Made by a program: the position numbers and the translations under genes. This document shows positions 1-31,821 of a DNA stretch of 64,000 nt, piece by piece. Source of the stretch: Lachnospiraceae bacterium (GTDB taxonomy: Bacteria > Bacillota > Clostridia > Lachnospirales > Lachnospiraceae); assembly GCA_011959805.1 (NCBI GenBank), contig BLMC01000004.1:1-64000 (forward strand). The letters are read 5' to 3'. Below the pieces are notes generated by a model. The model saw only the letters and a list, made by a program, of their open reading frames with translations, made no database searches and was not told the DNA's origin. Numbering within the stretch: the stretch's first letter is position 1; every line of letters begins with the position of its first letter.

Positions 1-104
1 TGAGAGCCCGCTAAAGCGGGCAAATGGGAGTTAATGTGAAATCTTTGATTTCACAGTCCTGATTTGAGAGCCCGCTAAAGTGGGCAAATGGGAGTTAATG
101 TGAA
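1..104. repeat. Direct repeat pair with hairpins upstream of the first gene
   Basis: A 40-base unit at 1-40 recurs at 65-104 with one mismatch (C at 17, T at 81), giving a 64-base period. Each copy holds a GCCCGCT/AGCGGGC-type stem (6-21 in the first copy). A second perfect stem, GTGAAATC/GATTTCAC with a TTT loop, lies at 36-54 between the copies. Each copy also carries GGGAG followed by a short spacer, so the second copy supplies the probable ribosome binding site of the gene at 107. The array may continue before the window. It could be a leader or attenuator, or an intergenic repeat; function is unknown. Confidence 0.75.
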
Positions 105-106
105 TT

Positions 107-2053
107 ATGAATTATATAATTGGTTTGATTGGTGATGTTCTTGGATGGTTAATGTATTTTTGCTATCGTGTTTTGCCAGATTATTTTATATCAATTATTG
201 TTTTTACTTTTGGAACCAAAATCGTTCTTTTGCCAGTTTCCTTGTGGGTGCAAAAAAATTCAATTAAGATGGTAAAGATGCAGCCGGAGATGAATTTTAT
301 CAAAGCAAAGTATTATGGAAACAGTGAGAAGATTTCAGAGGAGCAATATGAGTTATATAAAAGAGAGCATTATCAACCTCTCGCAGATTTGATTCCACTG
401 GCATTGCAGTTAATTCTTCTGATGGGGGTCATCGAGGTGATTAATCATCCAGAAGAATATATTTTTCGCGGTAAACTAGGGGTACTTGATACGATGTTAG
501 GCAGTCTGGATTTGTCGTCGGTACCAGTGGAGGTTGGAGGAATTGCATACTTGATTCCTTTAATAGCTGCATTGTCTGCATGGTTTATGTGTTTTATACA
601 AAATAAAATTAATGTATTGCAGGCAGAACAAGGGAAACTAAATCAACTTGGAACAATGATACTTTCTATTGGGTTGTCTCTTTATCTTGGCTTTTTTGTC
701 AAGACAGGTGTCGGTATTTACTGGACATTTAGCAATATCTTTTCGGTGGTGCAACTGTATTTTCTCAATCTCATTCTCAATCCTAAAAGGTATATTGACT
801 ATGATGCACTTGAGAGAAGTCGGGAGGAATTAAAAAGTGCCAGTGCCTTTGGTAAGGAAAATAAAAGCAAACTGTTTGAGAAGAACCCCTACAGAAAAAA
901 AGAAAAGGCAGATTACAAACGATTTTTTAAGGATTATGAAATGCAGCTTGTATTTTATTCTGAAAAAAATGGATTTTATAAATATTTTCAAAATATTATT
1001 GAAGTGTTGTTAGAAAAATCAAATGTGGTAATTAATTATGTGACAAGCGATCCCAATGACAAGGTATTTGAAATGGAGAGCGACCGTTTTAAACCCTACT
1101 ATATTGGCGAGAATAAATTGATTGTCCTAATGATGAAGCTTGAGGCGGATGTTGTTGTAATGACAACACCAGATTTGGAGAACTTTCATATTAAACGTTC
1201 TCTTGTCCGCAAGGACAATGAATATATCTATGTGCCACATGATGTAAATAGTCCTAATTTAACCTTCAGAAAAGAAGCGTTGGATCATTTTGATACAATA
1301 TTTTCTTCGGGATATCTATGTACAAAAGAGATTAGAAAAAGGGAAGAATTGTACAAACTACCAGAAAAGAAGATTGTTGAATGGGGCTCAAGTGTTATTG
1401 ACAATATGATTGCTGCTTATGCAGCGATGGACCAAGAAGAAAAGTCTGTAAAAGAGATTTTGATTGCACCCTCTTGGCAGAAGGGAAATATTTTGGCATC
1501 TTGTATTGAAGAAATATTGGAAAGGTTGCAAGGGCAAGGTTATCGAATTATTGTTAGACCGCATCCTCAGTTTGTACGCCACGAGGAGAAAAGACTGATT
1601 TGTCTACAGGAAAAATTTGATATGAACAACCGTGATGACATGGAGTTACAGATGGATTTTTCATCAAATAAGACTGTGTACGAAGCAGATCTTGTGATTA
1701 CGGATTGGTCTAGCATCGCATTTGAATATTCCTTTGCGACTCTTAAACCAGCATTATTTATTAATACGCCGATGAAAATTATGAATGAAGACTATGAAGA
1801 GTTAGGAATTATCCCAATTGATATTGAACTTCGGGATAAAGTGGGAAAAAGTATTGACATTGATAATCTTTCTATACTTCCGCAGGTGGTGGATGAGCTT
1901 TTGAGAAGTGATGCATTTTCAAAAGAGTCTTTGCGAAAGATTAGAGATTGCTATATTTACCATATTGGCAACAGTGGAGAGATAGGGGCACAGTATATTA
2001 TGGAAAGATTGGACTGGTATCAAAAGAAACATGAGGAGGAAGAAGATTATTAG
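107..2053 (+). CDS. YidC/Oxa1-like membrane domain fused to a TagB/TagF-like CDP-alcohol phosphotransferase domain
   Basis: This 648-residue protein has two parts. Residues 1 to about 235 resemble the YidC/Oxa1/SpoIIIJ insertase core: hydrophobic segments, a TKIVLLP stretch where YidC carries its groove arginine (here lysine), then a basic segment ending KMQPEM, and a cytoplasmic loop with YxxxHYQPLADLIP. Residues about 270-640 resemble CDP-glycerol glycerophosphotransferases: RPHP near 484 and DWSS near 530 match family motifs. The usual HGTP histidine motif appears as PHDVNSP. The next gene starts right after this stop and the following genes make AEP, so the enzyme may transfer a CMP- or CDP-activated group such as AEP to a membrane-bound polymer (inference). 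The start is ATG with GGGAG 12 bases upstream. Both domain assignments are fairly secure; the substrate is unknown. Confidence 0.8.
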   Translation: MNYIIGLIGDVLGWLMYFCYRVLPDYFISIIVFTFGTKIVLLPVSLWVQKNSIKMVKMQPEMNFIKAKYYGNSEKISEEQYELYKREHYQPLADLIPLALQLILLMGVIEVINHPEEYIFRGKLGVLDTMLGSLDLSSVPVEVGGIAYLIPLIAALSAWFMCFIQNKINVLQAEQGKLNQLGTMILSIGLSLYLGFFVKTGVGIYWTFSNIFSVVQLYFLNLILNPKRYIDYDALERSREELKSASAFGKENKSKLFEKNPYRKKEKADYKRFFKDYEMQLVFYSEKNGFYKYFQNIIEVLLEKSNVVINYVTSDPNDKVFEMESDRFKPYYIGENKLIVLMMKLEADVVVMTTPDLENFHIKRSLVRKDNEYIYVPHDVNSPNLTFRKEALDHFDTIFSSGYLCTKEIRKREELYKLPEKKIVEWGSSVIDNMIAAYAAMDQEEKSVKEILIAPSWQKGNILASCIEEILERLQGQGYRIIVRPHPQFVRHEEKRLICLQEKFDMNNRDDMELQMDFSSNKTVYEADLVITDWSSIAFEYSFATLKPALFINTPMKIMNEDYEELGIIPIDIELRDKVGKSIDIDNLSILPQVVDELLRSDAFSKESLRKIRDCYIYHIGNSGEIGAQYIMERLDWYQKKHEEEEDY

Positions 2054-3208
2054 ATGCAAGAAGTGATTAGAAAGAAGAGCGAACAAATGAAAAGAAACAT
2101 TTTGTTAAATCCGGGACCAGCAACGACAACAGATACAGTAAAAATGGCGCAAATTGTGCCTGATATCTGTCCAAGAGAGAAAGAATTCTCAGCAATGATG
2201 AAAAAAATGCGTGAGGAATTGGTGCAAATTGTGCATGGAAATCCAAACAAATATACATCTGTGCTATTTTGTGGTTCTGGAACGATAAATATTGATATCT
2301 GTCTCAACTCCTTATTGCCGGCGGAGAAAAAGATATTGATTATAAACAATGGCGCATACAGTACCAGAGCAGCGGAAATTTGTGAATACTATAATCTGCC
2401 TTTTATTGACTTAAAGTTTTCGGTTGATGAACTGCCAGATTTGGAGAAGGTGGAAGCAGTATTACAAGAGAATCCTGATATTGCACTCGTTCATACAACA
2501 CATAATGAGACAGGGACTGGAATCTTAAATCCAGTCAGAGAAATCGGTGCGCTGGCACATCAATATGGTGCCGTATTTACTGTGGATACTACATCCACAT
2601 ATGCGATGAGACCGATTGATATAGAGAAGGATAATATAGATTTTTGCATGGCATCAGCGCAAAAGGGACTTATGGCAATGACTGGCTTATCTTTTATTGT
2701 AGGAAATACACAAATTATACAAAAGTCTGCAAAATATCCTAAACGGTCTTATTATTGTAATTTATATTTGCAGTATCATTTCTTTGAGACAACTGGCGAG
2801 ATGCATTTTACACCACCTGTCCAGACAATCTATGCAGCAAGACAGGCATTGGATGAGTATTTTGCTGAGGGAGAACAAGCGAAGTGGGAACGGCATTTAA
2901 GTGTGTTTGAAGCAATTCATACGGGGCTTGATAGACTTGGATTTCGAGATATGATTAAAAGAGAGCTACAGGCAGGGTTAGTAGTATCTGTAAAATATCC
3001 AGATGATAAGAACTGGGATTTTGAGAAAGTACATGATTACTGTTATGAGCGAGGATTTACAATTTACCCAGGAAAAGTGTCGACACAGGATACCTTTCGC
3101 CTGTGTGCGCTAGGGGCAATTACAGCAAAGGACATTGCAGATTTTTTTGTGGTTTTTGAGCAGGCGCTTAGGGAGTACCAAATACAGATTCCTGTTTGCT
3201 ATCGATAA
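2054..3208 (+). CDS. phnW: 2-aminoethylphosphonate--pyruvate transaminase
   Basis: This is a 384-residue PLP-dependent class V aminotransferase. It interconverts phosphonoacetaldehyde plus alanine with AEP plus pyruvate; in this operon it should run toward AEP. The N-terminal motif NILLNPGPATTT is typical of PhnW. D178 (in TVDTTST) and K204 (in SAQKG) are the expected PLP-binding aspartate and Schiff-base lysine. The ATG directly follows the upstream stop and is preceded by GAGGAGGAAG; an internal Met12 is an alternative start. It sits immediately before the PEP mutase gene. In degradative operons PhnW pairs with a hydrolase (PhnX); none is seen here, and the neighbours point to synthesis. 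Confidence 0.92.
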   Translation: MQEVIRKKSEQMKRNILLNPGPATTTDTVKMAQIVPDICPREKEFSAMMKKMREELVQIVHGNPNKYTSVLFCGSGTINIDICLNSLLPAEKKILIINNGAYSTRAAEICEYYNLPFIDLKFSVDELPDLEKVEAVLQENPDIALVHTTHNETGTGILNPVREIGALAHQYGAVFTVDTTSTYAMRPIDIEKDNIDFCMASAQKGLMAMTGLSFIVGNTQIIQKSAKYPKRSYYCNLYLQYHFFETTGEMHFTPPVQTIYAARQALDEYFAEGEQAKWERHLSVFEAIHTGLDRLGFRDMIKRELQAGLVVSVKYPDDKNWDFEKVHDYCYERGFTIYPGKVSTQDTFRLCALGAITAKDIADFFVVFEQALREYQIQIPVCYR

Positions 3209-3233: not shown

Positions 3234-4529
3234 GTGAAAAAAGTATATACATGTTTCTGTACTGATGTGATACACGAAGGACATTTGAATCTTCTTCGCG
3301 AGGCAAAGAAATACGGAACTGTGACAGTTGGGATTTTAAGTGATGCCGCAATGATTAAGTATAATCGTTTTCCAACAATCACTATAGAAGAAAGAAAAAA
3401 GATTGTATTGGACACAGGATTTGTCAGTTCTGTTATCATTCAAAATGAAATTATGTATGACAAGGTGATTGCTGAGATAAAGCCAGATTTTGTGATTCAT
3501 GGGGATAATTGGTGCGAAGGACCAGAGAGCGCAATTCGTAATAATGTGATTGAAAATTTAAAGAAGTATGGGGGAGAGTTGATTGAGACTGCTTATACCT
3601 ATAATGAAAATGTAAAAAAAATTGACGATAATATTAGAGAAAAGCTCTCTATGCCAGAGTATCGAAGAAAACGTCTTCGCCAACTGTTAGACTTGTGTTC
3701 TATTGTTAAGACTATAGAAGTGCATAGTGGTCTTACAGGATTGATAGCGGAGAAGACAGTTGTAGAGCACAATGGAGAACTAAACCAGTTCGATGCAATG
3801 TGGTTGTCAAGTTTGTGTGATTCTACAGCCAAGGGAAAGCCGGATATTGAACTTGTCGATATGTCATCGCGGATGCGCACGATTGATGATGTAATGGAGG
3901 TGACAACAAAACCAATTATATTGGATGGAGACACAGGAGGACTGGTGGAGCATTTTGTATACAATGTTCGGACATTGGAGCGTATGGGTGTGTCAGCTAT
4001 TATTATTGAGGATAAAACAGGACTTAAGAAAAATTCCTTGTTTGGAATAGAAGTGAATCAAGTACAAGATTCCGTAGAAAATTTTTGTGATAAGATACGT
4101 GCTGGCAAGAGAGCACAGCGAACAGAAGAATTTATGATTATTGCACGAATTGAAAGTTTGATTTTAGAAAAAGGACAGGAAGATGCGCTGCAACGTGCCT
4201 TTGCATATGTGTCTGCTGGAGCAGATGCAATTATGATTCATTCCAGAAAAAAGTCTCCTGATGAAATCTTTATGTTCTGTGATGAGTTCCGTAAAACAAA
4301 TCAGAAGACACCAATTGTTGTAGTACCTACTTCGTTTAACAGTGTGACAGAGGCACAACTTGCACAGCATGGAGTCAATATTGTAATTTATGCAAATCAA
4401 CTAACAAGAAGTGCATTTCCAGCAATGCAAAGTACAGCAGTTGAAATTTTGAAAAATCACAGAGCACTCGAAGTCGATGCAAAATTAATGCCATTTCAGG
4501 AGATTATTAGGCTGATAGACGATATGTAG
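3234..4529 (+). CDS. Phosphoenolpyruvate phosphomutase with N-terminal cytidylyltransferase-like domain
   Basis: The 431-residue protein starts with a nucleotidyltransferase domain (about 1-130) carrying the HxGH motif H14-E-G-H17, as in glycerol-3-phosphate and ethanolamine-phosphate cytidylyltransferases. The rest (about 150-431) is a PEP mutase/isocitrate-lyase-type barrel with DGDTGG at 231-236 and EDKTGLKKNS from 259, matching the PEP mutase signature EDKxxxKxNS. PEP mutase makes phosphonopyruvate from PEP, the committed step of phosphonate synthesis. Start is GTG with AAAGGTAGG upstream. The fused cytidylyltransferase is interesting because the next gene also encodes a cytidylyltransferase of a different fold. 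Function of the mutase domain is confident; the N-terminal substrate is inferred. Confidence 0.93.
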   Translation: MKKVYTCFCTDVIHEGHLNLLREAKKYGTVTVGILSDAAMIKYNRFPTITIEERKKIVLDTGFVSSVIIQNEIMYDKVIAEIKPDFVIHGDNWCEGPESAIRNNVIENLKKYGGELIETAYTYNENVKKIDDNIREKLSMPEYRRKRLRQLLDLCSIVKTIEVHSGLTGLIAEKTVVEHNGELNQFDAMWLSSLCDSTAKGKPDIELVDMSSRMRTIDDVMEVTTKPIILDGDTGGLVEHFVYNVRTLERMGVSAIIIEDKTGLKKNSLFGIEVNQVQDSVENFCDKIRAGKRAQRTEEFMIIARIESLILEKGQEDALQRAFAYVSAGADAIMIHSRKKSPDEIFMFCDEFRKTNQKTPIVVVPTSFNSVTEAQLAQHGVNIVIYANQLTRSAFPAMQSTAVEILKNHRALEVDAKLMPFQEIIRLIDDM

Positions 4530-4552: not shown

Positions 4553-5284
4553 ATGGGGAAAGAGATTGGAATTATTATGGCAGCGGGACTTGGAACAAGA
4601 ATGCATCCATTGACAATAAAAAGACCAAAGCCATTAATAAGAGTGTTTGGAAAACCTATGATTGAGACAGTTATTGAAGGGCTGATTCACAGAGGGATAA
4701 CAGAAATTTATGTTGTTGTTGGGTATTTGAAGGAACAGTTTTCTTATTTGTGTACAAAATATGAGGGAATCTATCTGTTAGAGAATCTTGATTACGCAAA
4801 AAAAAATAATATATCTTCCATCTATGCTGCAAAAGATGTACTAGGAAAGGCAGACTGTTTCATTTGTGAGGCAGATCTGCTTGTTTCTGATTTTACGATT
4901 TTTGATAAAAAGCTGGATAGTTCGGGTTACTATGGAAAAATGGTTAAAGGTTATTCTGATGATTGGATATTTGAGCTGAAAAATGGGTATATTTCCAAGG
5001 TAGGAAAAGGTGGAGCAGACACTTACAATATGGTTGGAATTTCATTTTTTAAGAAAGAAGATGCATTAATTCTTGTAGATAAGATTACGCAAGCTTACAA
5101 GATACAAGAAAATGCAAATCTTTATTGGGATGAAGTAATTGACCAAAATATTGATTGTTTTCGGTTAAAAATTTATCCTGTGGAACAAGGGCAGATTATA
5201 GAAATAGATACAGTGGGTGAGTTGATTGCACTGGATGAGAAGGCCGTATTGGCAAATGCGGATACAGAGGAGGAGAATAGATGA
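4553..5284 (+). CDS. LicC/PntC-like CTP:phosphocholine or AEP cytidylyltransferase
   Basis: This 243-residue NTP-transferase has the N-terminal signature MAAGLGTRMHPLT followed by RPKPLIRVFGKPMIE, which binds nucleotide. A central NISSIYAAKD stretch and EADLL metal-binding-like motif resemble LicC-type phosphocholine cytidylyltransferases. Within an AEP operon the likely role is CTP plus AEP to CMP-AEP, as described for PntC-family enzymes. It overlaps the next gene by four bases (ATGA), indicating translational coupling. GGGGAA lies upstream of the ATG. A sugar-nucleotide role is a less likely alternative given the operon. Confidence 0.85.
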   Translation: MGKEIGIIMAAGLGTRMHPLTIKRPKPLIRVFGKPMIETVIEGLIHRGITEIYVVVGYLKEQFSYLCTKYEGIYLLENLDYAKKNNISSIYAAKDVLGKADCFICEADLLVSDFTIFDKKLDSSGYYGKMVKGYSDDWIFELKNGYISKVGKGGADTYNMVGISFFKKEDALILVDKITQAYKIQENANLYWDEVIDQNIDCFRLKIYPVEQGQIIEIDTVGELIALDEKAVLANADTEEENR

Positions 5285-6411
5285 GGGCGAGTATTTTTTT
5301 GCAGGAATTGAAGCGGATCGGAATTCATACAATTGCTGGAGTTCCAGACTCCACATTAAAACAGTTCTGCGATGCTATTCAATTAGATGAGGGAAAACAA
5401 TTTCAACATTATGTGACAGCAAATGAAGGTGCAGCGGTTGGTCTTGCGACGGGAATTTATTTGGCGACGAAACAGCCTTGTTTAGTGTATCTTCAAAACT
5501 CTGGTTTGGGAAATATCATCAATCCATTAGCATCGATTGCCAACTGTGAAGTGTATGGTATTCCAATGCTCTTTGTAATCGGATGGCGTGGAGAACCCGG
5601 CAAAAAGGATGAACCACAGCATGTTTATCAGGGAAAGATTACTGATACGCTTTTGGAAGTGATGAATGTATCATATGCGATAATTGATGATGCAACGACG
5701 CAAGAGCAGTTGAGCGAAATTTTTACAGAGGCCCGCAAAGTTCTGGATAATAACAGACAATATGCAGTGATTGTTAAGAAGGATACGTTTGAGAAAGAAC
5801 AGAAGTTTGAATGGAAAAACGGTTACAGTTTCGTGCGTGAACAGGCGTTAAGAGTAATCCTTCAAAATGTTTATCAAAATTCTTATATTGTATCAACAAC
5901 TGGAAAGATTTCGAGAGAGTTGTATGAACAGTGCCAAATGCTGTTTGGGAATCATGATAGACTTTTTATGACAGTGGGGGGGATGGGGCATGCCTCTATG
6001 ATTGCATTTGGAATTGCGCAGGCAGACAGGGCAAAACGCATTGTATGCATCGATGGTGATGGCGCAGTAATGATGCATATGGGAGCACTCGCATTTATCG
6101 CAAAGCAGTCGCCAAGTAATTTTCTGCATATTGTAATTAATAATGCTGCACATGAGTCTGTTGGGGCAATACCAACAGGTTTTAGTGGACAAACATATGC
6201 ACAGGTTGCAAAGGCATGTGGATATCATCGTGTAAGCACAGTTGATACAGAGCAAGATTTGAATAAGGCTTTGCAGATGGCAAGCAGTAGACAGGAGCTT
6301 TCTATGATTGAGGTGATGACTGCTCTTGATGCAAGGGTAGACCTTGGTAGACCCAAGGAGAGCGCGAAAGAAAACGGGATTCATTTTATGGAATCTTTAC
6401 AGGAAAGATAA
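5281..6411 (+). CDS. aepY: Phosphonopyruvate decarboxylase
   Basis: This is a 376-residue thiamine-diphosphate enzyme. It decarboxylates phosphonopyruvate to phosphonoacetaldehyde, pulling the unfavourable PEP mutase reaction forward. E49 in ANEGAAVGLA is the expected TPP-activating glutamate. GDGA at 259-262 begins the TPP/Mg-binding motif, with the NNAAHESVGAIPTG segment typical of this family from about 287. A strong GGAGGAG ribosome binding site lies just before the ATG. It completes the set PEP mutase, decarboxylase, transaminase needed for AEP. Sulfopyruvate decarboxylase is the closest alternative, but the neighbours make that unlikely. Confidence 0.93.
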   Translation: MRASIFLQELKRIGIHTIAGVPDSTLKQFCDAIQLDEGKQFQHYVTANEGAAVGLATGIYLATKQPCLVYLQNSGLGNIINPLASIANCEVYGIPMLFVIGWRGEPGKKDEPQHVYQGKITDTLLEVMNVSYAIIDDATTQEQLSEIFTEARKVLDNNRQYAVIVKKDTFEKEQKFEWKNGYSFVREQALRVILQNVYQNSYIVSTTGKISRELYEQCQMLFGNHDRLFMTVGGMGHASMIAFGIAQADRAKRIVCIDGDGAVMMHMGALAFIAKQSPSNFLHIVINNAAHESVGAIPTGFSGQTYAQVAKACGYHRVSTVDTEQDLNKALQMASSRQELSMIEVMTALDARVDLGRPKESAKENGIHFMESLQER

Positions 6412-6438: not shown

Positions 6439-7374
6439 TTGAGTAGGGTACGAGAGAACTGGATAGACGCGGCGCGAGGGTTGGCAATATACTCTGTAGT
6501 CTTGGGGCATAGCATTCAATATGGGACGCCACAGAATTATGAATTTCGTGCAAATGAAGTATTTCAGTTGATCTATGGATGTCATATGCCGCTTTTTATG
6601 ATACTTAGCGGATATTTGTTTTGGTATTCGTTAAATCGATATAATCTGCTTTATGGTGTATACGCAAAGATAAAGGGGATTATGATACCTTGTGCAGCAT
6701 GGGGATTGGTGACATGGATTTGTGATATATCATTGTGCGGAAATTCAAACATAAGCCTTAAGGGATATTTGTATTATACTGCTTTTTCAAATTGGTTCTT
6801 GTGGGCAGTATTCTATTGCTCTTTGTATGGTTTTGCTACAAAATATCTATTTCATAGTCATATTTTAGGGTATGTTATTGTACTGTTTGTAAATTATATT
6901 ATGCCTGAAATTGGAAATTACTCTGGAACAAAAAGAATGCTACCTTTTTTTGTGATGGGAATATTGTTGAATCAATATAAGATTTTAGACAAAATAAAGG
7001 GGATTCCCCAAATGGTGTTGTTATTGGTGCTCGGGGGATTCTATCTTCTAACTTTAAAGTTAGGATGTGTGGAATTGATTACTGGAACAATTGGAAGTGC
7101 ATTGGTCCTTGTAGGGTTTTATTGTCTGAAGGACCATTTTTATTTCGGGATTTTATGTAGACTAGGGCAAGTATCCATTAGTATTTATTTGTCTACAGGA
7201 ATTGTGTTTTTCTTTTGGATTAAGGAATATTTTAGAATTTCGGACTCCTATCGTTATTTGGTCAAAGCAGGCTATATTTTTTTGATGTCGATTGTACTGA
7301 CAGGAATGGCATTTGTATTGAGTAAACTCTTGCAGAAAAATTCAGTTACCAGAAGGCTGTTTATGGGAAGATAG
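6439..7374 (+). CDS. Acyltransferase family 3 membrane protein
   Basis: The 311-residue integral membrane protein has the acyltransferase-3 (OafA/WecH/NodX) hallmarks: RENWIDAARGLAIYSVVLGHS at the N terminus with the key histidine, then YGCHMPLFMILSGYLF, followed by about eight to nine more hydrophobic segments. Such enzymes transfer acetyl or succinyl groups to surface glycans at the membrane. Start is TTG with GGGAGG eight bases upstream; no better ATG exists at the N terminus. It lies between phosphonate synthesis genes and a sulfatase-like gene and probably O-acylates the same polymer. The acyl donor and acceptor cannot be read from the sequence. Confidence 0.85.
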   Translation: MSRVRENWIDAARGLAIYSVVLGHSIQYGTPQNYEFRANEVFQLIYGCHMPLFMILSGYLFWYSLNRYNLLYGVYAKIKGIMIPCAAWGLVTWICDISLCGNSNISLKGYLYYTAFSNWFLWAVFYCSLYGFATKYLFHSHILGYVIVLFVNYIMPEIGNYSGTKRMLPFFVMGILLNQYKILDKIKGIPQMVLLLVLGGFYLLTLKLGCVELITGTIGSALVLVGFYCLKDHFYFGILCRLGQVSISIYLSTGIVFFFWIKEYFRISDSYRYLVKAGYIFLMSIVLTGMAFVLSKLLQKNSVTRRLFMGR

Positions 7375-7385
7375 GGAGGACTAAT

Positions 7386-9524
7386 ATGTTTTATAACTAT
7401 GGAATTATTCTGATGATAATGATATTTAGCTTGTTGTCTTCTATAGAAATAGATTTTATAAAGACAAGAAAGTACCTTTTTTGGAAATGGTCATTCTATT
7501 TTTGTATAAATTTGTTTCTACTGTCCTCTGTAAAATATTATTTGGGATATCAAAAAGAAAACTTGTTAGAAAGCTTTTGGAATGCAAAATTTATTACATT
7601 GTTGCACTATAGTATTCCGTTGATAGTGGTAGCTGTTGTATTGCCAATTTTGCTAAAATTATTGTTAAGGGAAAACTATATAAAATTGATTTGCTATTTT
7701 GATTCTTCTCTATTTTTTACATTTGTTTTTACATTTTTCTTTGTTCGTAAATTCAATAATCGAGCATTTTGTATTGCGTTTATGTTGGCGATAATCATGG
7801 TTATAGTAGCAATTATTTTGGGAAGGATGAAATCAGATTGTCTGATCGATTTCAATAAAGACGCAGTCAAGAAAAAACTAAAAAAAATCTTACCAATTTT
7901 ATTATATTATCTGGTAACAGTGGTGATTTTTACGCCGAATGAACTTTACCTAAATAATGCGACAGATTTTCCTCTGTCATATGGGTATTTCTTTACAAAA
8001 TTGTTATTGTCAGGGGTGGTTGTAGTTCTGGCATTAATAGCAGGAATGATACTATATTTTAATGAAGAGCATCTAAATTTATGTTTATTTTTTATATTTG
8101 CTTTTTTGACTGTGGGATATATTCAAGGATTACTTTTGAATGGAAATATGGGTGTTTTAGACGGGACAGGAAGTAATGTATATAACAAGGGGACCATAAT
8201 TATCAATATTATTGTCTGGTTTGTATTGATAGGGATATTTGTCTTTGTTGCATGGAGAAAACGTGTATTTTTTGAAAAACTAATGAGGGTTGTAAGCATT
8301 TGGATTTTGCTGATTCAGATAGTGACGCTTGGAACAATTTTTATCACCGCCAAGGAAATCACATCGAAAGACGAGATGGTTTTGCTAACAGAAGGTATGC
8401 TTGATATCGGGCAAAAGGACAATATTATTATCTTTGTTTTGGACAAGTTTGACGGAACTTATGTCGATGAAATATTAGAACAAGACCAAAACTTTTTTGA
8501 GCCTTTAAATGACTTTGTGTTTTATAATAATGCGGCAAGTTTATTTAGTCCAACATATGACAGCATTCCCTTTTTGCTCACTGGAACGACATATGATGAA
8601 GATAGTCATATAGATTATGTACAATATGCATATGATGGTAATAATTTATTGACGGATATTAGTGATGCCGGCTATGATATCGGTGTATATACCGATAAGC
8701 GGTATGTTGTAGAACAGATGAAAGACAGGATATCTAATTATGAAGAAGGCGTGCAAAGAACATGTAGTATGAAGGATTTGTTTTCTTTGATGAAACAGTG
8801 CTCTATGTACAAGATGGCTCCTTTCGTCGCCAAATATTATTATATTTATGATACAAGTGATATTGCGTTGTTGGCTGTAAATGATAAAATAGTAAATATA
8901 GAGGATGATTTGCCATTTTATCATAAACTGATAAGAGAGGGGTTGGGACTCTCCGAAAACAATACAGAGAGTGTATTTCGTTTTATTCATATGCATGGTG
9001 GACATCCACCCTATATTATGACAGAGGATTTTCAACATATTGCATATGATTATAGGAGAGATGAACATTGGGGAAGTGGTGTTTCACAGCGAAAGGGCGC
9101 TATGAAAATTGTATATGAATATATTAACCAGATGAAAAAACTTGGAAAGTATGATGATGCACTTATTGTTATTACTGCGGATCATGGGATCACAGAAGAA
9201 TTGTGTGATGCTGATGGAAATATGGAAAAAGTTTCCTTTCCTATTTTATTTGTCAAAGAGCCCTATGATTCTCATGAAAATATGATGATTAGTAGCACTC
9301 CAGTGTGTCATGAAGACTTGATTGCAACTATTAGAAAAAAGATTGGAATCTCTGTTGCGGACAGAACACTAAAGGAGATTGATGCGGATGAGAAAAGAGT
9401 GCGCTGCATGTATATTTCAACTCCAGATGTACTTGAAAAGTTTGAGATAGATGGAGAGATTGACAAAGTAGATAATTGGAGATTCCTGTATAAAAAACGA
9501 AAAGAATTAGAGACTACACATTAA
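7386..9524 (+). CDS. Membrane sulfatase / LTA-synthase-like phosphotransferase or hydrolase
   Basis: The 712-residue protein has an N-terminal half with about nine to ten hydrophobic segments (1-340) and a C-terminal extracytoplasmic alkaline-phosphatase-superfamily domain (about 344-690). Visible motifs are IIFVLDKFDGT near 345 (metal-binding aspartates), SPTYDSIP near 388 with a candidate threonine nucleophile, TADHG near 596 (Asp-His metal ligands) and CHEDL further on. Proteins of this layout (LtaS, OpgB, EptA types) move phosphoglycerol or phosphoethanolamine groups outside the membrane. In an AEP operon it could transfer or remove a phospho- or phosphonoalcohol group (inference). A GGGAGGA site precedes the ATG. 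Confidence 0.82.
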   Translation: MFYNYGIILMIMIFSLLSSIEIDFIKTRKYLFWKWSFYFCINLFLLSSVKYYLGYQKENLLESFWNAKFITLLHYSIPLIVVAVVLPILLKLLLRENYIKLICYFDSSLFFTFVFTFFFVRKFNNRAFCIAFMLAIIMVIVAIILGRMKSDCLIDFNKDAVKKKLKKILPILLYYLVTVVIFTPNELYLNNATDFPLSYGYFFTKLLLSGVVVVLALIAGMILYFNEEHLNLCLFFIFAFLTVGYIQGLLLNGNMGVLDGTGSNVYNKGTIIINIIVWFVLIGIFVFVAWRKRVFFEKLMRVVSIWILLIQIVTLGTIFITAKEITSKDEMVLLTEGMLDIGQKDNIIIFVLDKFDGTYVDEILEQDQNFFEPLNDFVFYNNAASLFSPTYDSIPFLLTGTTYDEDSHIDYVQYAYDGNNLLTDISDAGYDIGVYTDKRYVVEQMKDRISNYEEGVQRTCSMKDLFSLMKQCSMYKMAPFVAKYYYIYDTSDIALLAVNDKIVNIEDDLPFYHKLIREGLGLSENNTESVFRFIHMHGGHPPYIMTEDFQHIAYDYRRDEHWGSGVSQRKGAMKIVYEYINQMKKLGKYDDALIVITADHGITEELCDADGNMEKVSFPILFVKEPYDSHENMMISSTPVCHEDLIATIRKKIGISVADRTLKEIDADEKRVRCMYISTPDVLEKFEIDGEIDKVDNWRFLYKKRKELETTH

Positions 9525-9565
9525 CGATGAAAGCTGGGTATCGTGTATGGAAGGAAGTAACGAAA

Positions 9566-10552
9566 ATGGATTGCAGTAGACAGAACGGTATACTCTATAT
9601 TGTCATTCCTTGTTTTAATGAGGAGGAGGCATTGGCTTCTTCTTCGTTAAAACTTTTAGAGAAACTGCATGAACTGGTAAGGAGTGAAATGATTTCCCAA
9701 CAAAGCAAAATTGTGTTTGTGGATGATGGCTCTGCGGACAGGACATGGGAAATAATACAAGATTTATATAATAAAAATGAAGAGATTATTGGACTTCGTT
9801 TTGCACATAATAGAGGACATCAGAATGCGATTTTGGCTGGAATGATGTACTCTGTAAAATATTGTGATTTTACTATAACAATAGATGCAGATTTACAGCA
9901 AGATATCAATGCGATGGAGGATTTTATTCGAGCGTATTTGGATGGCAACGAAGTTGTGTATGGTGTTCGTAATTCCAGAAATACAGATGGTTTTTTCAAA
10001 AAACTTTCTGCTACATTATTCTATAAAACAATGAGGATTATGGATTGTGATATCTATGAGAATTCAGCAGACTACCGCCTTATGAGTAAGAAAGCATTGC
10101 AGGCATTATCAGAATATGATGAAGTAAATTTATTTCTTCGTGGAATTATACCAGATATTGGACTGAAGTCTTCTATTGTACATTTTGAAGTATTTCCGCG
10201 GATGCAAGGAGAATCCAAGTATTCTTTATCAAAAATGTTTACATTGGCAGTCGATGGAATTACATCTTTTAGCATCAAACCAATTCGGATGGTTTTTATG
10301 ATGGGTATATTAGCGTTGCTAGTAGGATTTTTTATGATTATACACATTGTCTATGAACACTATTTTGGGTATACCGTCAGTGGATGGTCTTCTATATTAA
10401 TGTCCATCTGGGTGCTTGGAGGGGCAGTTTTGTTATCACTTGGTATTATCGGAGAATATGTAGGAAGAAATTATTTAGAAACAAAACATCGTCCTAAATA
10501 TTATTTCTGGGAGATTCTTTCGAGAGACGAAAGGGGGGAAGATAGTGAGTGA
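9566..10552 (+). CDS. GT2 polyprenyl-phosphate glycosyltransferase (GtrB/DPM1/ArnC-like)
   Basis: About 328 residues. A GT-A domain with VIPCFNEEE, FVDDGSADRTWE and TIDADLQQD (the DxD-type motif) is followed by two C-terminal transmembrane segments and the GRNYLETKHRPKY tail common in GtrB-like enzymes. These make polyprenyl-phosphate-linked sugars used by membrane GT-C transferases. An ATG at 9527 would add 13 residues but has no ribosome binding site; the ATG at 9566 has AAGGAAG at good spacing, so I chose it. The end overlaps the next gene by eight bases. Sugar specificity is not readable. Confidence 0.88.
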   Translation: MDCSRQNGILYIVIPCFNEEEALASSSLKLLEKLHELVRSEMISQQSKIVFVDDGSADRTWEIIQDLYNKNEEIIGLRFAHNRGHQNAILAGMMYSVKYCDFTITIDADLQQDINAMEDFIRAYLDGNEVVYGVRNSRNTDGFFKKLSATLFYKTMRIMDCDIYENSADYRLMSKKALQALSEYDEVNLFLRGIIPDIGLKSSIVHFEVFPRMQGESKYSLSKMFTLAVDGITSFSIKPIRMVFMMGILALLVGFFMIIHIVYEHYFGYTVSGWSSILMSIWVLGGAVLLSLGIIGEYVGRNYLETKHRPKYYFWEILSRDERGEDSE

Positions 10553-11690
10553 GAGCACATCATATGACAAAATAATTATTGGTGCTGGTCTCTATGGCCT
10601 TTATTCTGCTTATTTCTGCGCAAAACGTGGGCAGCATGTGTTGGTTTTGGAGTGTGATAAAGGGCCTTTTCAGCGGGCAACTTATATCAATCAGGCTAGA
10701 GTACATCAGGGATATCACTATCCACGCTCTCTCTCTACAGCTATGAAGTCAGCAGGATACTTTGCCCGATTTAATGAGGATTATAGTTTTTGTATTAATC
10801 GGGAGTTTCAGAAAGTATATGCCACATCCAGTGAATACTCGTGGTCTGATGGAACGCAGTTTAAAAAGTTTTGCGCGGCAGCACAAATTCCATGTGAGGA
10901 GTTGTGTCCAGAAAAATTTTTTCAGAAAGGCATGTGCGACGGGGCATTTTTGACGCGAGAATACACATATGATGCCATGATTTTAAAGGATTTTTTTATG
11001 GAACAGCTGGAATCAGTGAGCAGTTTGGCTAAGATCCATTTCGAGGTGAAGATTGAAAGGATTGAAAAGACACAAGATGCATATGAACTGTATGTAAGAG
11101 AAGGGCAGGAAATAGTAAAATACAGGACAAATTTTGTGCTCAATGCAACGTATGCTTCCACAAACCAAATTCTTGATATGCTTGGGTATGATAAGTTTGG
11201 CATCAAATATGAGTTGTGCGAGATTATACTCTGCGAGGTAAATGATAAGTTGAGAGAGTATGGATTTACTGTGATGGATGGCCCCTTTTTCTCCATTATG
11301 CCGTTTGGAAAAACAGGTATGCACTCACTTACTTCTGTGACGTTTACGCCGCATGAGACAAGTTATGATGCGGTGCCACGGTTTGCTTGTCAGACGGACA
11401 GTGATGGATATTGTAACAGCGAACATCTTGGCAATTGTAACAATTGCAAGGCAAAACCGCGAACAGCATTTCCCTATATGGCGAATCTTGCGCGCAAATA
11501 TTTGCAAAAGGAGTATGCATTTACGTATAAGGAATCTCTATTTTCTATGAAACCGATTCTTATGAGTTCAGAGATTGATGATTCAAGACCGACAGTTGTT
11601 CGCACGTATTCTGTTAATCCAACGTTTGTGGGTGTTTTGTCAGGAAAGATTAATACTGTGTATGATTTAGATGAAATCCTATCTGCGTAA
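10545..11690 (+). CDS. FAD-dependent oxidoreductase (DAO-like)
   Basis: A 381-residue flavoprotein with an N-terminal dinucleotide-binding fold, IIIGAGLYGLYSAYFCA followed by VLVLE, as in the D-amino-acid-oxidase family. The segment TYINQARVHQGYHYPRS and a C-terminal NCNNCKAKPR stretch may contribute to substrate binding or a structural cysteine cluster. The start is GTG with GGGGGGAA just upstream, overlapping the preceding glycosyltransferase. Its location among glycosyltransferases and sugar-modifying enzymes suggests it oxidises a sugar or lipid-linked intermediate, but no substrate can be assigned. The family call is secure; the role is not. Confidence 0.82.
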   Translation: MSESTSYDKIIIGAGLYGLYSAYFCAKRGQHVLVLECDKGPFQRATYINQARVHQGYHYPRSLSTAMKSAGYFARFNEDYSFCINREFQKVYATSSEYSWSDGTQFKKFCAAAQIPCEELCPEKFFQKGMCDGAFLTREYTYDAMILKDFFMEQLESVSSLAKIHFEVKIERIEKTQDAYELYVREGQEIVKYRTNFVLNATYASTNQILDMLGYDKFGIKYELCEIILCEVNDKLREYGFTVMDGPFFSIMPFGKTGMHSLTSVTFTPHETSYDAVPRFACQTDSDGYCNSEHLGNCNNCKAKPRTAFPYMANLARKYLQKEYAFTYKESLFSMKPILMSSEIDDSRPTVVRTYSVNPTFVGVLSGKINTVYDLDEILSA

Positions 11691-11870
11691 TATGCAATCT
11701 CGCCATAAATTTTAATTGTAGGTGTGCGAATTGACTCTAAGCTGACTTGCCCATCATCACAAGAATACCAACGACATTCTTGAATGCAATTTGGGCGATG
11801 AAAAATAGTATAAAATTTGAATACTCGACGAGGCAAGTATATAGGAGTTAAAGTGAGGAAATAAAAATAC
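11691..11870. repeat. Intergenic copy A of a dispersed hairpin repeat (minus orientation)
   Basis: This gene-free stretch carries a CAAGAAT/ATTCTTG hairpin at 11760-11782. Read on the minus strand it matches the element at 22827-22906: after the hairpin, a 19-base block (here 11715-11733) agrees at 16 positions with 22888-22906. The distance from hairpin to block differs by nine bases between copies. It separates the FAD oxidoreductase gene from the next glycosyltransferase. It may be a mobile or regulatory intergenic repeat or a relic of a short coding sequence. Confidence 0.6.
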
Positions 11871-12803
11871 ATGACAAGTAAAGAAAAAAATTTTATATCG
11901 GCGGTAATTTATGTTCATAATGATACAGAACGGATTGAAAAATTCTTGCAAACAGTGGTGCAAGTATTGGAAGAGCATTTTGAACATTCGGAAGTTATCT
12001 GTGTCAATGATTATTCGCAGGATAATAGCGTAGATGTGATAAAATCGATAGGAAGTAAGGCGAAAAATACCACAGTGACAATTTTAAATATGAGTTATTT
12101 TCATGGGGTTGAACTTGCGATGAATGCAGGAATGGATTTGGCGATTGGGGATTTTGTATTGGAGTTTGATATGTGCTTGTTAGATTTTGAGCCGATGGAA
12201 ATAATCAAGGTTTATCAAAAATCTCTAAAAGGATTTGATATTGTAAGTGCCTCGCCCAATCAAAGGCAACGATTTACTTCGGAACTCTTTTATAAGGTGT
12301 TTAATCGATTTACCAATTTTTCTTATCGAATTGGTACAGAACGGTTTCGAGTGTTGAGTCGACGAGTAATTAACCGCATAAGCAATATGAATAAATCAGT
12401 ACCTTATCGAAAGGCGGTATATGCGAATTGCGGCTTGAAAACTGCAAATATGAAATATCAGGTTATTGGAAAACAGAGGATGAAACAGGACCAAGATGAG
12501 CGTAAGTATCGCACTGATTTAGCGGTGAATAGCATGATTCTTTTTACAGGACTAGGGTATCGATTTTCGGTTACGATGACAGTGATTATGATGTTGGTTG
12601 CTATCTTTGTCGCTGTTTACTCAGCAGTAATATATTTATTTAGCACACCGGTTGCAGGGTGGACAACAACAATATTCTTTATGTCCTTTGCCTTTTTTGG
12701 ACTGTTTGGGATTCTGACAGTGATTATAAAGTATCTTCAGATTTTAGTCGATTTAATATTTAAACGAAGGAAATACAGTTTCGAGAGTATAGAAAAGTTA
12801 TAG
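11871..12803 (+). CDS. Divergent GT2 glycosyltransferase with C-terminal membrane segments
   Basis: A 310-residue protein laid out like DPM1/GtrB enzymes: a GT-A domain (about 1-220) and two transmembrane segments (about 225-290). The family motifs are altered: VIYVHNDTE replaces the usual nucleotide-binding start, VNDYSQDNS replaces VDDGSxD, and EFDMCLLD stands where DADLQ is expected. The metal-binding site may therefore be degenerate or specialised. The start ATG follows GTGAGG. It precedes the SDR and isomerase genes. It is a probable transferase or a partner of the preceding GtrB-like enzyme. Confidence 0.75.
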   Translation: MTSKEKNFISAVIYVHNDTERIEKFLQTVVQVLEEHFEHSEVICVNDYSQDNSVDVIKSIGSKAKNTTVTILNMSYFHGVELAMNAGMDLAIGDFVLEFDMCLLDFEPMEIIKVYQKSLKGFDIVSASPNQRQRFTSELFYKVFNRFTNFSYRIGTERFRVLSRRVINRISNMNKSVPYRKAVYANCGLKTANMKYQVIGKQRMKQDQDERKYRTDLAVNSMILFTGLGYRFSVTMTVIMMLVAIFVAVYSAVIYLFSTPVAGWTTTIFFMSFAFFGLFGILTVIIKYLQILVDLIFKRRKYSFESIEKL

Positions 12804-12814
12804 GAGGAACAGAT

Positions 12815-13795
12815 ATGGTAGCATTGGTAGGTTATACTGGATTTGTAGGAAGCAATCTGTATGCAAGAGCGAGGAATCGCATTAAGGGTGTGTACAATTC
12901 ACAGAACATAGAGAAAGCTTATGGTCTTGAGCCAGAGGTACTCATTTACGCGGGGGTACGTGCAGAAAAATATCTTGCAAACAATGCGCCAGAACGAGAT
13001 CTGGAACAGATTTTGCAGGCGGAGAAAAACATTAAGGCAATCAATCCACAGCGCCTTGTGCTAATCTCTACCATAGATGTCTACAATAATCCTGTGGGAG
13101 TGGATGAGAAGGATTCTCCTTTGATGGATGGAAAGGGCAACAAAGAATATCGTTTTGAGCCGTATGGACTAAATCGTTATTATCTGGAGCAGTGGGTGCG
13201 CAAAAATTATCCAAATGCGTTGATTGTGCGGCTGCCAGCACTTTATGGTTATAATATTAAGAAAAATTTTATTTATGACTATATGAATATAATACCATCT
13301 ATGTTAAAGAAAGAAAAGTATCTTGAATTAAAAGTTTTGGAGAAGACAGAAGATGCGATTCGCTTAGAAGATTGCTATGAGGCAGCAGGAAATGGATTTT
13401 ATCGATGTGTAAAACTTGATTGGGAGAAAAGGGAGCTTTTAAAGAGAAAGTTTAAGAAACTAGGATTTACAGCGCTGAATTTTACAGACAGTCGCAGTAC
13501 ATTTCAATTTTATTCGTTGGGGCGGTTGTGGGAAGATATTCAAACGGCATTGAATGAAGATATAACGTATTTTAATATTGCTACGGAGCCTGTTTCCGCA
13601 GCAGAAGTATATAAGGCATTGACAGGAGATGTCTTTAAGAATGAGTTGAAGAAAACACCAGTAAAGTATGATTTCAGAACTACATACGCAGCAAAGTTTG
13701 GCGGTAAAGATGGATATCTTTGTAGCAAGGAAGCAGTTCTGACAGATATCAAGATGTTTGTAAATCATATGATTAAAGAGGGTGAACAAAGATGA
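12815..13795 (+). CDS. NAD(P)-dependent epimerase/dehydratase-like SDR protein
   Basis: This 326-residue extended SDR begins VALVGYTGFVGSN, a Rossmann GxxGxxG-type nucleotide site. Y117 lies in PYGLNRYYLE, so the canonical YxxxK catalytic lysine is an arginine (R121); the tyrosine and an upstream ISTIDVY serine/threonine are present. Such proteins reduce, epimerise or dehydrate nucleotide sugars. TAGGAGGA precedes the ATG, and the 3' end overlaps the next gene (ATGA). Placement suggests it acts with the isomerase-like gene that follows in making an unusual sugar or polyol. Whether the lysine change alters activity is unknown. Confidence 0.8.
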   Translation: MVALVGYTGFVGSNLYARARNRIKGVYNSQNIEKAYGLEPEVLIYAGVRAEKYLANNAPERDLEQILQAEKNIKAINPQRLVLISTIDVYNNPVGVDEKDSPLMDGKGNKEYRFEPYGLNRYYLEQWVRKNYPNALIVRLPALYGYNIKKNFIYDYMNIIPSMLKKEKYLELKVLEKTEDAIRLEDCYEAAGNGFYRCVKLDWEKRELLKRKFKKLGFTALNFTDSRSTFQFYSLGRLWEDIQTALNEDITYFNIATEPVSAAEVYKALTGDVFKNELKKTPVKYDFRTTYAAKFGGKDGYLCSKEAVLTDIKMFVNHMIKEGEQR

Positions 13796-14610: not shown

Positions 14611-15404
14611 TAGAAGGTGGACGAACGGGGGTCCCGAATTTTTTGTGTGCGGAATACGCTCCAAAGACGAAGGATTATGTGGTGTTGATTCCTGTTATCA
14701 ATGAAGGCGAGCGTATCTTAAAAGAGCTTTATCGCGCATATCGACATCATATTGCAGACTGTGCAGATCTTGTAATCTGTGATGGTGGCTCGACCGATGG
14801 CAGTATGGAAGAACGAAAATTAAAGAAGCTTCAAGTAAATACTCTGTTGACAAAAAAGGATATTGGAAAGCAGGGAGCACAACTGCGCATGGGAATTTAC
14901 TGGGCGCTTGAGAGAGGATATAGGGGCGTGATTACAATTGATGGCAATAACAAGGACAGTATTGAGGATATTCCGCGATTTATCCAGAAGCTTGAGGAAG
15001 GATATGACTTTGTGCAGGGTTCGCGGTTTATTAAAGGTGGAAAAGCGGTCAATACTCCCCCCATACGAAATATTGCAGTGCGTCTAATTCATGCGCCAGT
15101 AATTTCATTGACTGCTGGACAACGTTTTACAGACACAACAAATGCTTATCGGGCATATTCGGCGCGGTATTTGCAGGATAAGCAAGTGGCGCCACTACGG
15201 GATGTATTTATGACTTATGAGCTTTTAGCATATCTTTCTGTCCGCGCAACACAGCTTGGTTACAAAGCATGTGAGATTCCTGTGACACGCGCCTATCCCA
15301 AAAAGGGAAAAACACCTACAAAGATTAGTTTTTGGAAAGGGAATGGAACTCTTCTTAAGATTTTGTTTCAAAATGTTCGTGGAGAATATAATCCAAAATA
15401 CTGA
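14607..15404 (+). CDS. GT2 glycosyltransferase (DPM1/polyprenyl-phosphate type)
   Basis: The 265-residue GT-A protein has YVVLIPVINEGERILKEL, DLVICDGGSTDGS, and TIDGNNKDSIED in place of the usual DxD region, then QGSRFIKGGKAVNTP, a dolichol-phosphate-mannose-synthase-like segment. There are no clear C-terminal transmembrane helices, unlike the GtrB-like enzymes nearby. The start overlaps the isomerase stop (ATGA) and is preceded by GGGAGA. It may charge a polyprenyl-phosphate carrier with the sugar made by the two upstream enzymes (inference). Confidence 0.83.
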   Translation: MIEGGRTGVPNFLCAEYAPKTKDYVVLIPVINEGERILKELYRAYRHHIADCADLVICDGGSTDGSMEERKLKKLQVNTLLTKKDIGKQGAQLRMGIYWALERGYRGVITIDGNNKDSIEDIPRFIQKLEEGYDFVQGSRFIKGGKAVNTPPIRNIAVRLIHAPVISLTAGQRFTDTTNAYRAYSARYLQDKQVAPLRDVFMTYELLAYLSVRATQLGYKACEIPVTRAYPKKGKTPTKISFWKGNGTLLKILFQNVRGEYNPKY

Positions 15405-15422
15405 CAAAAATAGGAGTACAGC

Positions 15423-15452
15423 TTTACAGCATCTTGTGGGGCGTGGTATAAT
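15423..15452 (+). promoter_or_regulatory. Predicted sigma-A promoter with extended -10
   Basis: TTTACA at 15423-15428 and TATAAT at 15447-15452 are separated by 18 bases. TGG immediately before the -10 gives an extended -10 signature. It lies about 40 bases upstream of the polyprenyl glycosylphosphotransferase start at 15493, so a new transcript probably begins here. Confidence 0.6.
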
Positions 15453-15492
15453 GCAGTGGATTGCAGATGGGTTTTGAAGTAGAGGGAATGAA

Positions 15493-16917
15493 ATGGAGAA
15501 TATCAGAAGAAAGAATAAAATGATAGAGACGTACAGTATTCTTTTGATTGATATACTGGGCGTTGTTATTTCCTATGCATTATCGTTGTTTATTCGGTTC
15601 CACATAATCCACTATGAAAATTATCCCAGACAATTCCATCTGATGGTGGGAACTTATATTGTGGTTTTATGTTTGCTCTACAATATGTTTCTTGACGCGA
15701 ACAGAAATTTTTTTACCAGAGGATATTATCAGGAATTTTACTATACGGTACGATATACACTGATTCTTGTGGTGGGATTGGTAGTAGTGTTATATCTTAC
15801 ACAGCAGGCGTATGAATTTTCCCGTTCTGTGTACGGGATTTTTGCCATTTTAAATACACTGTTCACATATGTGGCGCACATGGTCTTCAAAAAGATTTTG
15901 TGGAAGTATTATAGAAAAAGTACCAGTGCAGAGAAAATGCTTGTCATCACAAAGGATTTTATGGCAGAAGAGGTGATTGGCAATCTGCTCAAAGGAAAAG
16001 AATGGTATTATGATATTACAGCGGTAGTAGTATATGATGTGAATCGGATAGGGGAGATAATAAAAGCAGTTCCAGTTGTCGCAGCAAAAGATAATCTATA
16101 TGAAAAAGTTGTACAGATGATGGTAGATGAAGTGTTTATCTGTCTGCCGGGAGTACCAGTGATTGAAATTCGCGATATGGTCCAGCGATTTGAAGAAATG
16201 GGACTGACGTGTCATTATAATGTGGATTTGTTTCGCCGCGCGAATCCTAACACCTACGTACAGCAGATGGCAGGATACAGTGTTATATCGTTTGCATTGA
16301 AGACAATGGATTCGAGAAGAATGTTGATTAAGCGGTTGATTGATATTTTGGGGGCGCTTGTGGGATTATTTCTCACAGCGCTGCTCACACCGTTTGTGGC
16401 GTTAGCAATTAAAATTGATTCGCCAGGTCCTGTATTTTTTTCACAGACACGGATTGGGAAGAACGGACGTCGCTTTAAGATATGGAAATTTCGTTCTATG
16501 TATCTTGATGCGGAGGAACGGAAAAAAGAGCTTCAAGCCAAAAATGAGATGAATGGTCTAATGTTTAAGATGGAGGATGATCCGCGTGTTACAAAAGTAG
16601 GACGATTTCTACGTCGGACAAGTATTGATGAAACACCACAATTTCTTAATATTTTGATAGGAAATATGAGCTTGGTTGGCACACGACCACCGACGGAGGA
16701 TGAGTTTGAACAGTACAGTGGTTATTACAGGAGACGTATGAGCATCACTCCCGGACTTACGGGTTTATGGCAGGTTAGTGGTAGAAGTGATATTCAAGAT
16801 TTTGAGGAAATTGTAAAAATGGATCTTGAATATATCGATAATTGGTCGTTGGGATTGGATATTAAAATTCTGTTTATGACAGTGTTTGTCGTTCTAAGAA
16901 GAAAGGGTTCAAAATAG
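15493..16917 (+). CDS. Polyprenyl glycosylphosphotransferase (WbaP/CpsE-like), first of two in the window
   Basis: A 474-residue enzyme with four to five N-terminal transmembrane helices, a cytoplasmic CoA-binding-like domain (about 140-270), and the bacterial sugar-transferase domain (about 280-474). The catalytic domain shows KRLIDILGALVGL, a SPGPVFFSQTRIG segment, WKFRSM, RTSIDETPQ and GTRPPTEDE, all family motifs, including the Asp-Glu pair. It transfers a sugar-1-phosphate from UDP-sugar to undecaprenyl phosphate, starting glycan assembly. AGAGGGAA precedes the ATG, and a strong promoter lies upstream. It is followed closely by a TagA/WecG-type transferase. Confidence 0.93.
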   Translation: MENIRRKNKMIETYSILLIDILGVVISYALSLFIRFHIIHYENYPRQFHLMVGTYIVVLCLLYNMFLDANRNFFTRGYYQEFYYTVRYTLILVVGLVVVLYLTQQAYEFSRSVYGIFAILNTLFTYVAHMVFKKILWKYYRKSTSAEKMLVITKDFMAEEVIGNLLKGKEWYYDITAVVVYDVNRIGEIIKAVPVVAAKDNLYEKVVQMMVDEVFICLPGVPVIEIRDMVQRFEEMGLTCHYNVDLFRRANPNTYVQQMAGYSVISFALKTMDSRRMLIKRLIDILGALVGLFLTALLTPFVALAIKIDSPGPVFFSQTRIGKNGRRFKIWKFRSMYLDAEERKKELQAKNEMNGLMFKMEDDPRVTKVGRFLRRTSIDETPQFLNILIGNMSLVGTRPPTEDEFEQYSGYYRRRMSITPGLTGLWQVSGRSDIQDFEEIVKMDLEYIDNWSLGLDIKILFMTVFVVLRRKGSK

Positions 16918-16925
16918 GAGATAAG

Positions 16926-19769: not shown

Positions 19770-19861
19770 GGAATGACTGCAGGTGCATACGAAAGCATGA
19801 AAACGGGAAAGATACCATTACAACATTTAATGAACTACAAAGAATCAGGAGAATACATCAG

Positions 19862-31808: not shown

Positions 31809-31821
31809 GTGAGGGAGAAAT

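Follow-up and report, generated by a model that had tools for sequence, protein, structure and literature searches.

The gene at positions 107..2053 (forward strand) of the window, i.e. the whole stretch of 64,000 nucleotides of Lachnospiraceae DNA analysed here, encodes a protein of 648 aa in which a YidC-like membrane domain is fused to a TagF-like transferase domain. This fusion is quite possibly the inner part of a dedicated machine for surface decoration, with a route through a lipid headgroup and a transfer by an AlkP-superfamily enzyme outside the cell. Such a machine would probably decorate the cell surface with aminoethylphosphonate (AEP), phosphoethanolamine or phosphocholine. The families involved are known individually, and a search of the open-access PMC literature yielded no description of either a YidC-TagF or a YidC-AlkP protein; as far as this literature shows, the assembled machine is new.

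Domains and distribution of the YidC-TagF fusion

The open reading frame has no internal stop. Pfam placed a YidC/Oxa1 core domain (PF02096) at residues 26-221 (182..769), with E 1.5e-29 and 103.5 bits for a cut-off of 35 (E 2.1e-30 in the genome scan), and TIGR03592 also matched above its cut-off. The TagF-like GT-B domain extends over residues 246-648 (842..2050), with a PF04464 match at residues 414-551 (E 1.4e-7, 31.3 bits for a cut-off of 22.1). An AlphaFold model built from 25 family rows had a mean pLDDT of 85.2. With this model, the first Foldseek match was TagF (3l7k, E 2.4e-9), and E. coli YidC (6al2, E 5.4e-7) and B. halodurans YidC2 (3wo7, E 5.9e-7) ranked 4 and 5 (TMt 0.67). The initial annotation, which had described a YidC-like N-terminal part followed by a CDP-glycerol phosphotransferase-like remainder, is borne out on both counts, including the YidC fold on which its reading of the N-terminal part depended. 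The VIA Z of the model to TagF was 21.4, not above that of UDP-GlcNAc 2-epimerases; the fold alone therefore cannot single out TagF, and it is the sequence family that assigns the C-terminal part to it.

A chance or assembly chimera was ruled out by the presence, in the fetched loci, of 80 open reading frames of at least 560 aa carrying both domains. Clustering at 98% reduced these to 63 non-redundant loci, 49 of which are flanked by 4 kb or more on each side; the neighbour counts below cover a distance of 8 kb from the fusion in these 49 loci, many of which come from one genus. The full-length fusion was found in 25 of the 36 genomes of the same genus (own included). In wider samples, fusions were found in 21 of 397 genomes of the family (two, G653 and G688, being cut by contig ends) and in 5 of 391 genomes of the class (own included). 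From the phylum sample of 398 genomes, five were listed: both domains are present only in our own genome and in G195, and the three others have the TagF part only. Strain 526-35 has the fusion in two frames of 140 and 518 aa (L015, 8001-9940), probably because of a frameshift or an assembly error. Carriers named as strains exist, e.g. Lachnospiraceae bacterium A4 (locus L011) and IMSAGC_002.

Among 28 aligned fusions, RPHP and DWS are invariant, as are H378 (1238..1240) and H486 (1562..1564), the latter belonging to RPHP. Through ordinary PF04464 proteins (hhalign of the fusion against these, E 7.5e-12, plus the TagF alignment), H378 was aligned with TagF H444 and H486 with TagF H584. According to PMC11666461, H444 is the likely base and H584 contacts the pyrophosphate of CDP-glycerol. 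The RPHP motif noticed in the initial annotation is thus confirmed. Its DWSS motif holds for the first three letters, the last being S or G, and its changed HGTP site is real in that the complete WHGTP motif is absent (PHDV in the window fusion), but the histidine of this site, H378, is kept in 28/28 and is the only invariant residue there. TagF/TagB/TarL enzymes (PF04464; 3l7k, 8va1) have the GT-B fold, both catalytic histidines and T-D-[WY]-S in common with the fusion, whereas the fusion keeps the H alone of HGTP, has a YidC domain in front and has CMP-AEP, CDP-ethanolamine and CDP-choline as its probable donors. At E 1e-6, phmmer with its TagF part did not pick up the genus's ordinary PF04464 proteins. 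The TagF part would very probably transfer a headgroup from a CMP- or CDP-activated donor.

A positively charged groove residue is known for Gram-positive YidC. As previously noticed, the fusion has a lysine at this groove-arginine position (K38, 218..220, from the alignment of fusions), and a basic residue is kept in all 61 readable sequences of the 63 aligned (K in 58, R in 3). The same position is Tyr in 21/21 canonical YidC of the genus (loci L050 and L052-L071). It is N, Q or S in 13/13 of the YidC-AlkP proteins described below; a basic groove residue is therefore not required. The core fold and the basic residue are common to the fusion and to YidC/Oxa1/Alb3 insertases such as 3wo7 and 6al2, but the C-terminus of the fusion continues into a transferase, and its identity to 3wo7 is 24%. 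The YidC domains of the YidC-TagF fusions (group A, 21 rows), of canonical YidC (10) and of the YidC-AlkP proteins (13) formed separate groups. Long branches leave the relation between the two YidC-like groups unsure, and one recruitment is indistinguishable from two. Unlike the known insertases, the fusion is found in glycan/phosphonate operons. A recent fusion of the resident YidC was rejected, as the fusion domain forms its own group and the canonical YidC has Tyr at the groove. A short stand-alone YidC in G055 was also rejected as a split form, its locus (L032) giving no TagF, small-protein or AlkP match.

Alternatively, the YidC-like domain could serve the membrane proteins of the module (AlkP enzyme, small protein, glycosyltransferases) as their own insertase or assembly factor, physically tied to one of them. 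A true YidC fold, K38 at the groove-arginine site and fusions to different partners would suit such a role, as would the 9 of 25 same-genus fusion genomes where no second PF02096 protein was found; these are drafts, and gaps are likelier than a replacement of the normal YidC by the fusion. Another PF02096 protein is present in the 16 remaining genomes and the YidC-AlkP proteins carry N, Q or S at the groove site, which makes the insertase role improbable.

Probable genes of headgroup activation beside the fusion

In the window, the fusion is followed on the forward strand by genes encoding PhnW, the 2-aminoethylphosphonate aminotransferase (2054..3208; TIGR03301, E 9.1e-140, above cut-off), a cytidylyltransferase-like domain fused to PEP mutase (PepM; 3234..4529; PF01467 E 4.1e-8, PF13714 E 5.1e-56, TIGR02320 above cut-off), a PntC-like NTP transferase, which is a probable CTP:AEP cytidylyltransferase by comparison with PMC6697681 (4553..5284; PF00483/PF12804), and phosphonopyruvate decarboxylase (Ppd; 5281..6411; TIGR03297, E 7.7e-134, above cut-off). 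The successive gaps are 0, 25, 23 and -4 bp. The AEP pathway set is complete, with PepM, Ppd and PhnW above equivalog cut-offs in addition to cytidylyltransferase domains. The latter are of two types in this operon, PF01467 fused to PepM and PF00483/PF12804 as a separate protein, and both are likewise present in most PepM-bearing relatives. An acyltransferase-3 family membrane protein (6439..7374; PF01757 E 4.3e-19) and an AlkP-superfamily membrane enzyme of 712 aa (7386..9524) come next on the same strand, followed by glycosyltransferases.

The fusion had been described as leading a phosphonate operon. The AEP operon is real, but the leading position is an effect of the contig edge. The window starts with two copies of a short hairpin repeat (1..105, forward strand), and the same sequence ends another contig of the same genome (C39), the last bases of which repeat the first bases of the window; the two contigs are not joined. 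The assembly broke at these repeats. At the end of C39 lie genes for an AlkP enzyme (696 aa) and for a small protein with a YIDPS motif (80 aa). As in L002 and L004, AlkP and the small protein thus probably come first locally, followed by YidC-TagF, PhnW and the rest of the operon.

An enzyme activating AEP, a CobD-linked product or choline with CTP was found within 8 kb in 40 of the 49 loci, and was not seen by profiles within this distance in 9. PepM was counted in 28 loci and an FrbH-like protein in 6, the two never occurring together. PepM is encoded in 19 of the 25 same-genus fusion genomes, and 18 of these have it no more than 8 kb away from the fusion; in the remaining one (G033), a contig ends at the fusion and PepM is found on a different contig. 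This linkage gives good support to the donor already put forward from the window, CMP-AEP or a related group. In all six PepM-less fusion genomes, the fusion is adjoined by a protein of about 600 aa combining an NTP transferase with a CobD-like aminotransferase (NTPt-CobD), whose best NCBIfam match, threonine-phosphate decarboxylase CobD, scores 119 bits, below cut-off. One genome (G016) has both PepM and this protein. PepM was also found without the fusion in G011, where the operon is cut at a contig start, and in G034, with no PhnW match in the 19 kb taken; the NTPt-CobD protein was found without the fusion in G002 and, outside the genus, in G042. In other genera, choline kinase-NTPt fusions are located near the fusion in L101, L103 and L105; one also lies near a YidC-AlkP gene in L153. 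In L111, likewise from another genus, PepM is accompanied by an iron alcohol dehydrogenase and gave no PhnW match.

In 33 control loci with PF04464 only (5.5-19.9 kb), we found no AlkP, small protein, PepM or FrbH-like protein, two NTPt-like and one CTP_transf-like protein, and none of the module neighbours was found in 21 canonical yidC loci (12-18 kb). In a subset of 22 loci from 20 genera (L091-L112), AlkP was counted in 12, the small protein in 19, a CTP-activating enzyme in 17, PepM in 9 and FrbH-like in 2. Three of these loci come from G718, flanks were unfiltered, the TagD-like gene of L104 was identified by eye, and L113, where the fusion is cut at a contig end, was excluded.

From the enzyme families and PMC6697681, we infer that the product of the neighbours is CMP-AEP in the window and, in other loci, CDP-choline, CDP-ethanolamine or some comparable product linked to CobD. 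The neighbours point to CMP-AEP, rather than CDP-glycerol, as the donor of the window fusion. The initial view was too narrow, since the probable donor varies and the fusion is one part of a larger module. According to PMC6697681 (2019), the tailoring that follows C-P bond formation is enigmatic; the paper then gives the activation step, in which PntC activates AEP by cytidylylation; it also places LicD-like phosphotransferases near PntC genes. In the PntC/LicC-LicD tailoring described there, AEP or choline is likewise cytidylyl-activated before transfer to the cell surface, but the candidate transferase here is the YidC-TagF protein, not a LicD-like one. Surface transfer is the step after activation, and the fusion is a concrete candidate transferase with its partners, in a system common to AEP, CobD-linked and choline versions. 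C. difficile CD0240-CD0244 was considered as a parallel to the NTPt-CobD enzyme; in the source consulted, the functions of three of these genes, including cd0242 and cd0244, are not described.

Partner proteins and rearranged fusions

At up to 8 kb from the fusion, the AlkP-superfamily membrane enzyme was found in 35 of the 49 loci, or in 29 of 43 when the six seed loci of its profile are set aside, and was not found within this distance in 14. The small YIDPS protein was detected in 45 loci and not found in 4. Both profiles were built partly from loci that were counted (L033 was dropped from the AlkP seeds before the counts). Across the 397 family genomes, the small protein is present in 21/21 fusion genomes, five of which gave rows to its profile, and in 1 of the 376 others (borderline). 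We rejected the idea that AlkP is a general genome feature, as it is present in 0/33 PF04464-only and 0/21 canonical yidC control loci. The small protein has a single membrane pass by hydropathy, the YIDPS motif and a K/R-rich tail; for three such proteins, Pfam gave no family above cut-off.

In the window AlkP, D353, T390, H535, H540, D599 and H600 are invariant in 22 rows; by analogy with known families, we take them to be the nucleophile and metal ligands. Its predicted structure has the AlkP-superfamily fold. About five helices precede the AlkP domain in the short form (L017, hydropathy) and more in the 712-aa window form, and this hydropathy suggests that the AlkP domain is probably outside the cell. 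The best PDB match of the family sequence profile was LtaS (E 5e-10), and the structure matches of the window AlkP were led by sulfatases and YejM, LtaS being absent among the best 50 listed; the structure thus gives LtaS no preference over sulfatases or YejM. LtaS, EptA, YejM and sulfatases also combine helices with an AlkP domain carrying the invariant D, T, H and DH, but the enzyme studied here accompanies YidC-like and small parts or is joined to them in one protein. LtaS and EptA move headgroups from phospholipids.

An AEP- or ethanolamine-lipid could also be the end product itself (a phosphonolipid or an analogue of PE), with AlkP as a turnover enzyme. CDP-choline or CDP-ethanolamine combined with a membrane enzyme does resemble Kennedy-type lipid synthesis, and in the Foldseek ranking the window AlkP fold also matches hydrolases such as phosphonate monoester hydrolase as well as sulfatases. 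However, the module sits among glycan genes in the window and its enzyme is of the TagF type, not of the CDP-alcohol phosphatidyltransferase type, and we consider this end-product role very unlikely.

The same parts were found fused in other ways in relatives. AlkP, YidC and TagF form one protein of about 1200 aa in L023, L024, L025 and L031 (the last scanned with Pfam), and the small protein is fused to AlkP in L094. In a second arrangement, YidC is fused to AlkP (about 900 aa; Pfam run on those of L153, L154 and L155) and TagF is encoded separately, its gene being present at 10 of the 12 YidC-AlkP loci, which come from five genomes; the two genes are neighbours in L153-L155, L168-L171, L173, L175 and L176. 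AEP genes lie beside YidC-AlkP in L154 and L155 (PhnW, PepM, Ppd, NTPt) and in L175 (PepM, Ppd, NTPt). The initial annotation had held that separate genes in close relatives, with no link to AEP genes, would count against it; separate genes were found in more distant relatives, where YidC is fused to AlkP, so that this counter-case did not arise. In one clostridial genus (G117, G143, G193; L170, L171, L175), each genome harbours several genes for YidC-AlkP proteins, some of them arranged in tandem, adjoining TagF genes that start with YIDPG.

The TagF partners of YidC-AlkP proteins start with a YIDPG segment and a helix, recalling the small protein. Compared with the small-protein profile, the best two of 11 such starts scored 14.0 and 8.6 bits (the highest of 2172 shuffled decoys reaching 8.1), and hhalign gave a probability of 43%. 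In addition, a stand-alone relative of the TagF part is encoded in a PepM operon (L152, 9297-10463), with two genes behind it, one for a sulfatase-domain protein of 478 aa and one for a similar protein of 484 aa; neither YidC nor the small protein gave a match in the 15 kb of this locus. Re-fusion of the same parts in different ways is good evidence that they act together, our confidence being somewhat lowered since it is the motif that ties the YIDPG segment in the second arrangement to the small protein. From these sequence arrangements, the YidC-like, TagF-like, AlkP and small parts would, with high probability, work together.

A possible route for the headgroup

On the reading that we favour, the TagF part, placed in the cytoplasm because of the chemistry of its donor, would take the headgroup off CMP and place it on an acceptor lipid. 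As a membrane hub, the YidC-like domain, which comes from a family with a polar groove, would let the headgroup lipid cross, and the AlkP enzyme, outside, would transfer the headgroup from the lipid to an exported polysaccharide, in the manner of LtaS and EptA. The passage role is assigned to the YidC-like part because a donor inside and a transferase outside need a link, and this is the part that is fused to either. It is also proposed because insertases scramble lipids in vitro: according to PMC10491306, members of the Oxa1 family, E. coli YidC among them, do so with phospholipids both in liposomes and in simulations, the lipids concerned being common phospholipids. By this analogy, a lipid-linked intermediate might tentatively be carried across with the YidC-like part. 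It is somewhat less likely still that the YidC fold has been turned from an insertase into the lipid-headgroup passage of a decoration machine of which the small YIDPS protein is an obligate subunit. If the YidC-like domain does pass lipids, this would provide a physiological use for the reported scrambling by insertases and an example of the Oxa1 fold recruited into lipid and glycan chemistry. D-alanylation by Dlt follows the same logic of activation inside, passage through the membrane and transfer outside, but we know of no protein families common to the two systems.

The main alternative, which was also the view of the initial annotation, is that decoration takes place directly in the cytoplasm. 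In this case, the TagF part would put AEP, phosphoethanolamine or phosphocholine onto an undecaprenyl-linked glycan, as LicD-like enzymes do, with YidC anchoring or positioning the acceptor and AlkP performing an unrelated or later step. The acceptors of the TagF family are lipid-linked glycans, and the window carries genes of glycan assembly and export (Bac_transf, WecG/TagA and Wzm/Wzt types). Moreover, L152 manages without YidC and AlkP is missing near the 14 fusions mentioned above. Nevertheless, direct decoration leaves unexplained both the YidC-AlkP fusions and the co-travel of the small protein; we hold it to be possible, if somewhat doubtful.

Among the glycan genes of the window, a Wzm/Wzt-type ABC exporter (ABC2_membrane; ABC_tran with Wzt_C) is encoded at 30807-33198 in the same strand run and is a possible glycan exporter. 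Finally, a block of genes encoding a GT2, an FAD oxidoreductase, a second GT2 and an NAD-epimerase shows 74-84% identity between the window (9527-13795) and locus L043 of G030 (15221-20000), whereas the fusion of G030 is only 50% identical to that of the window.
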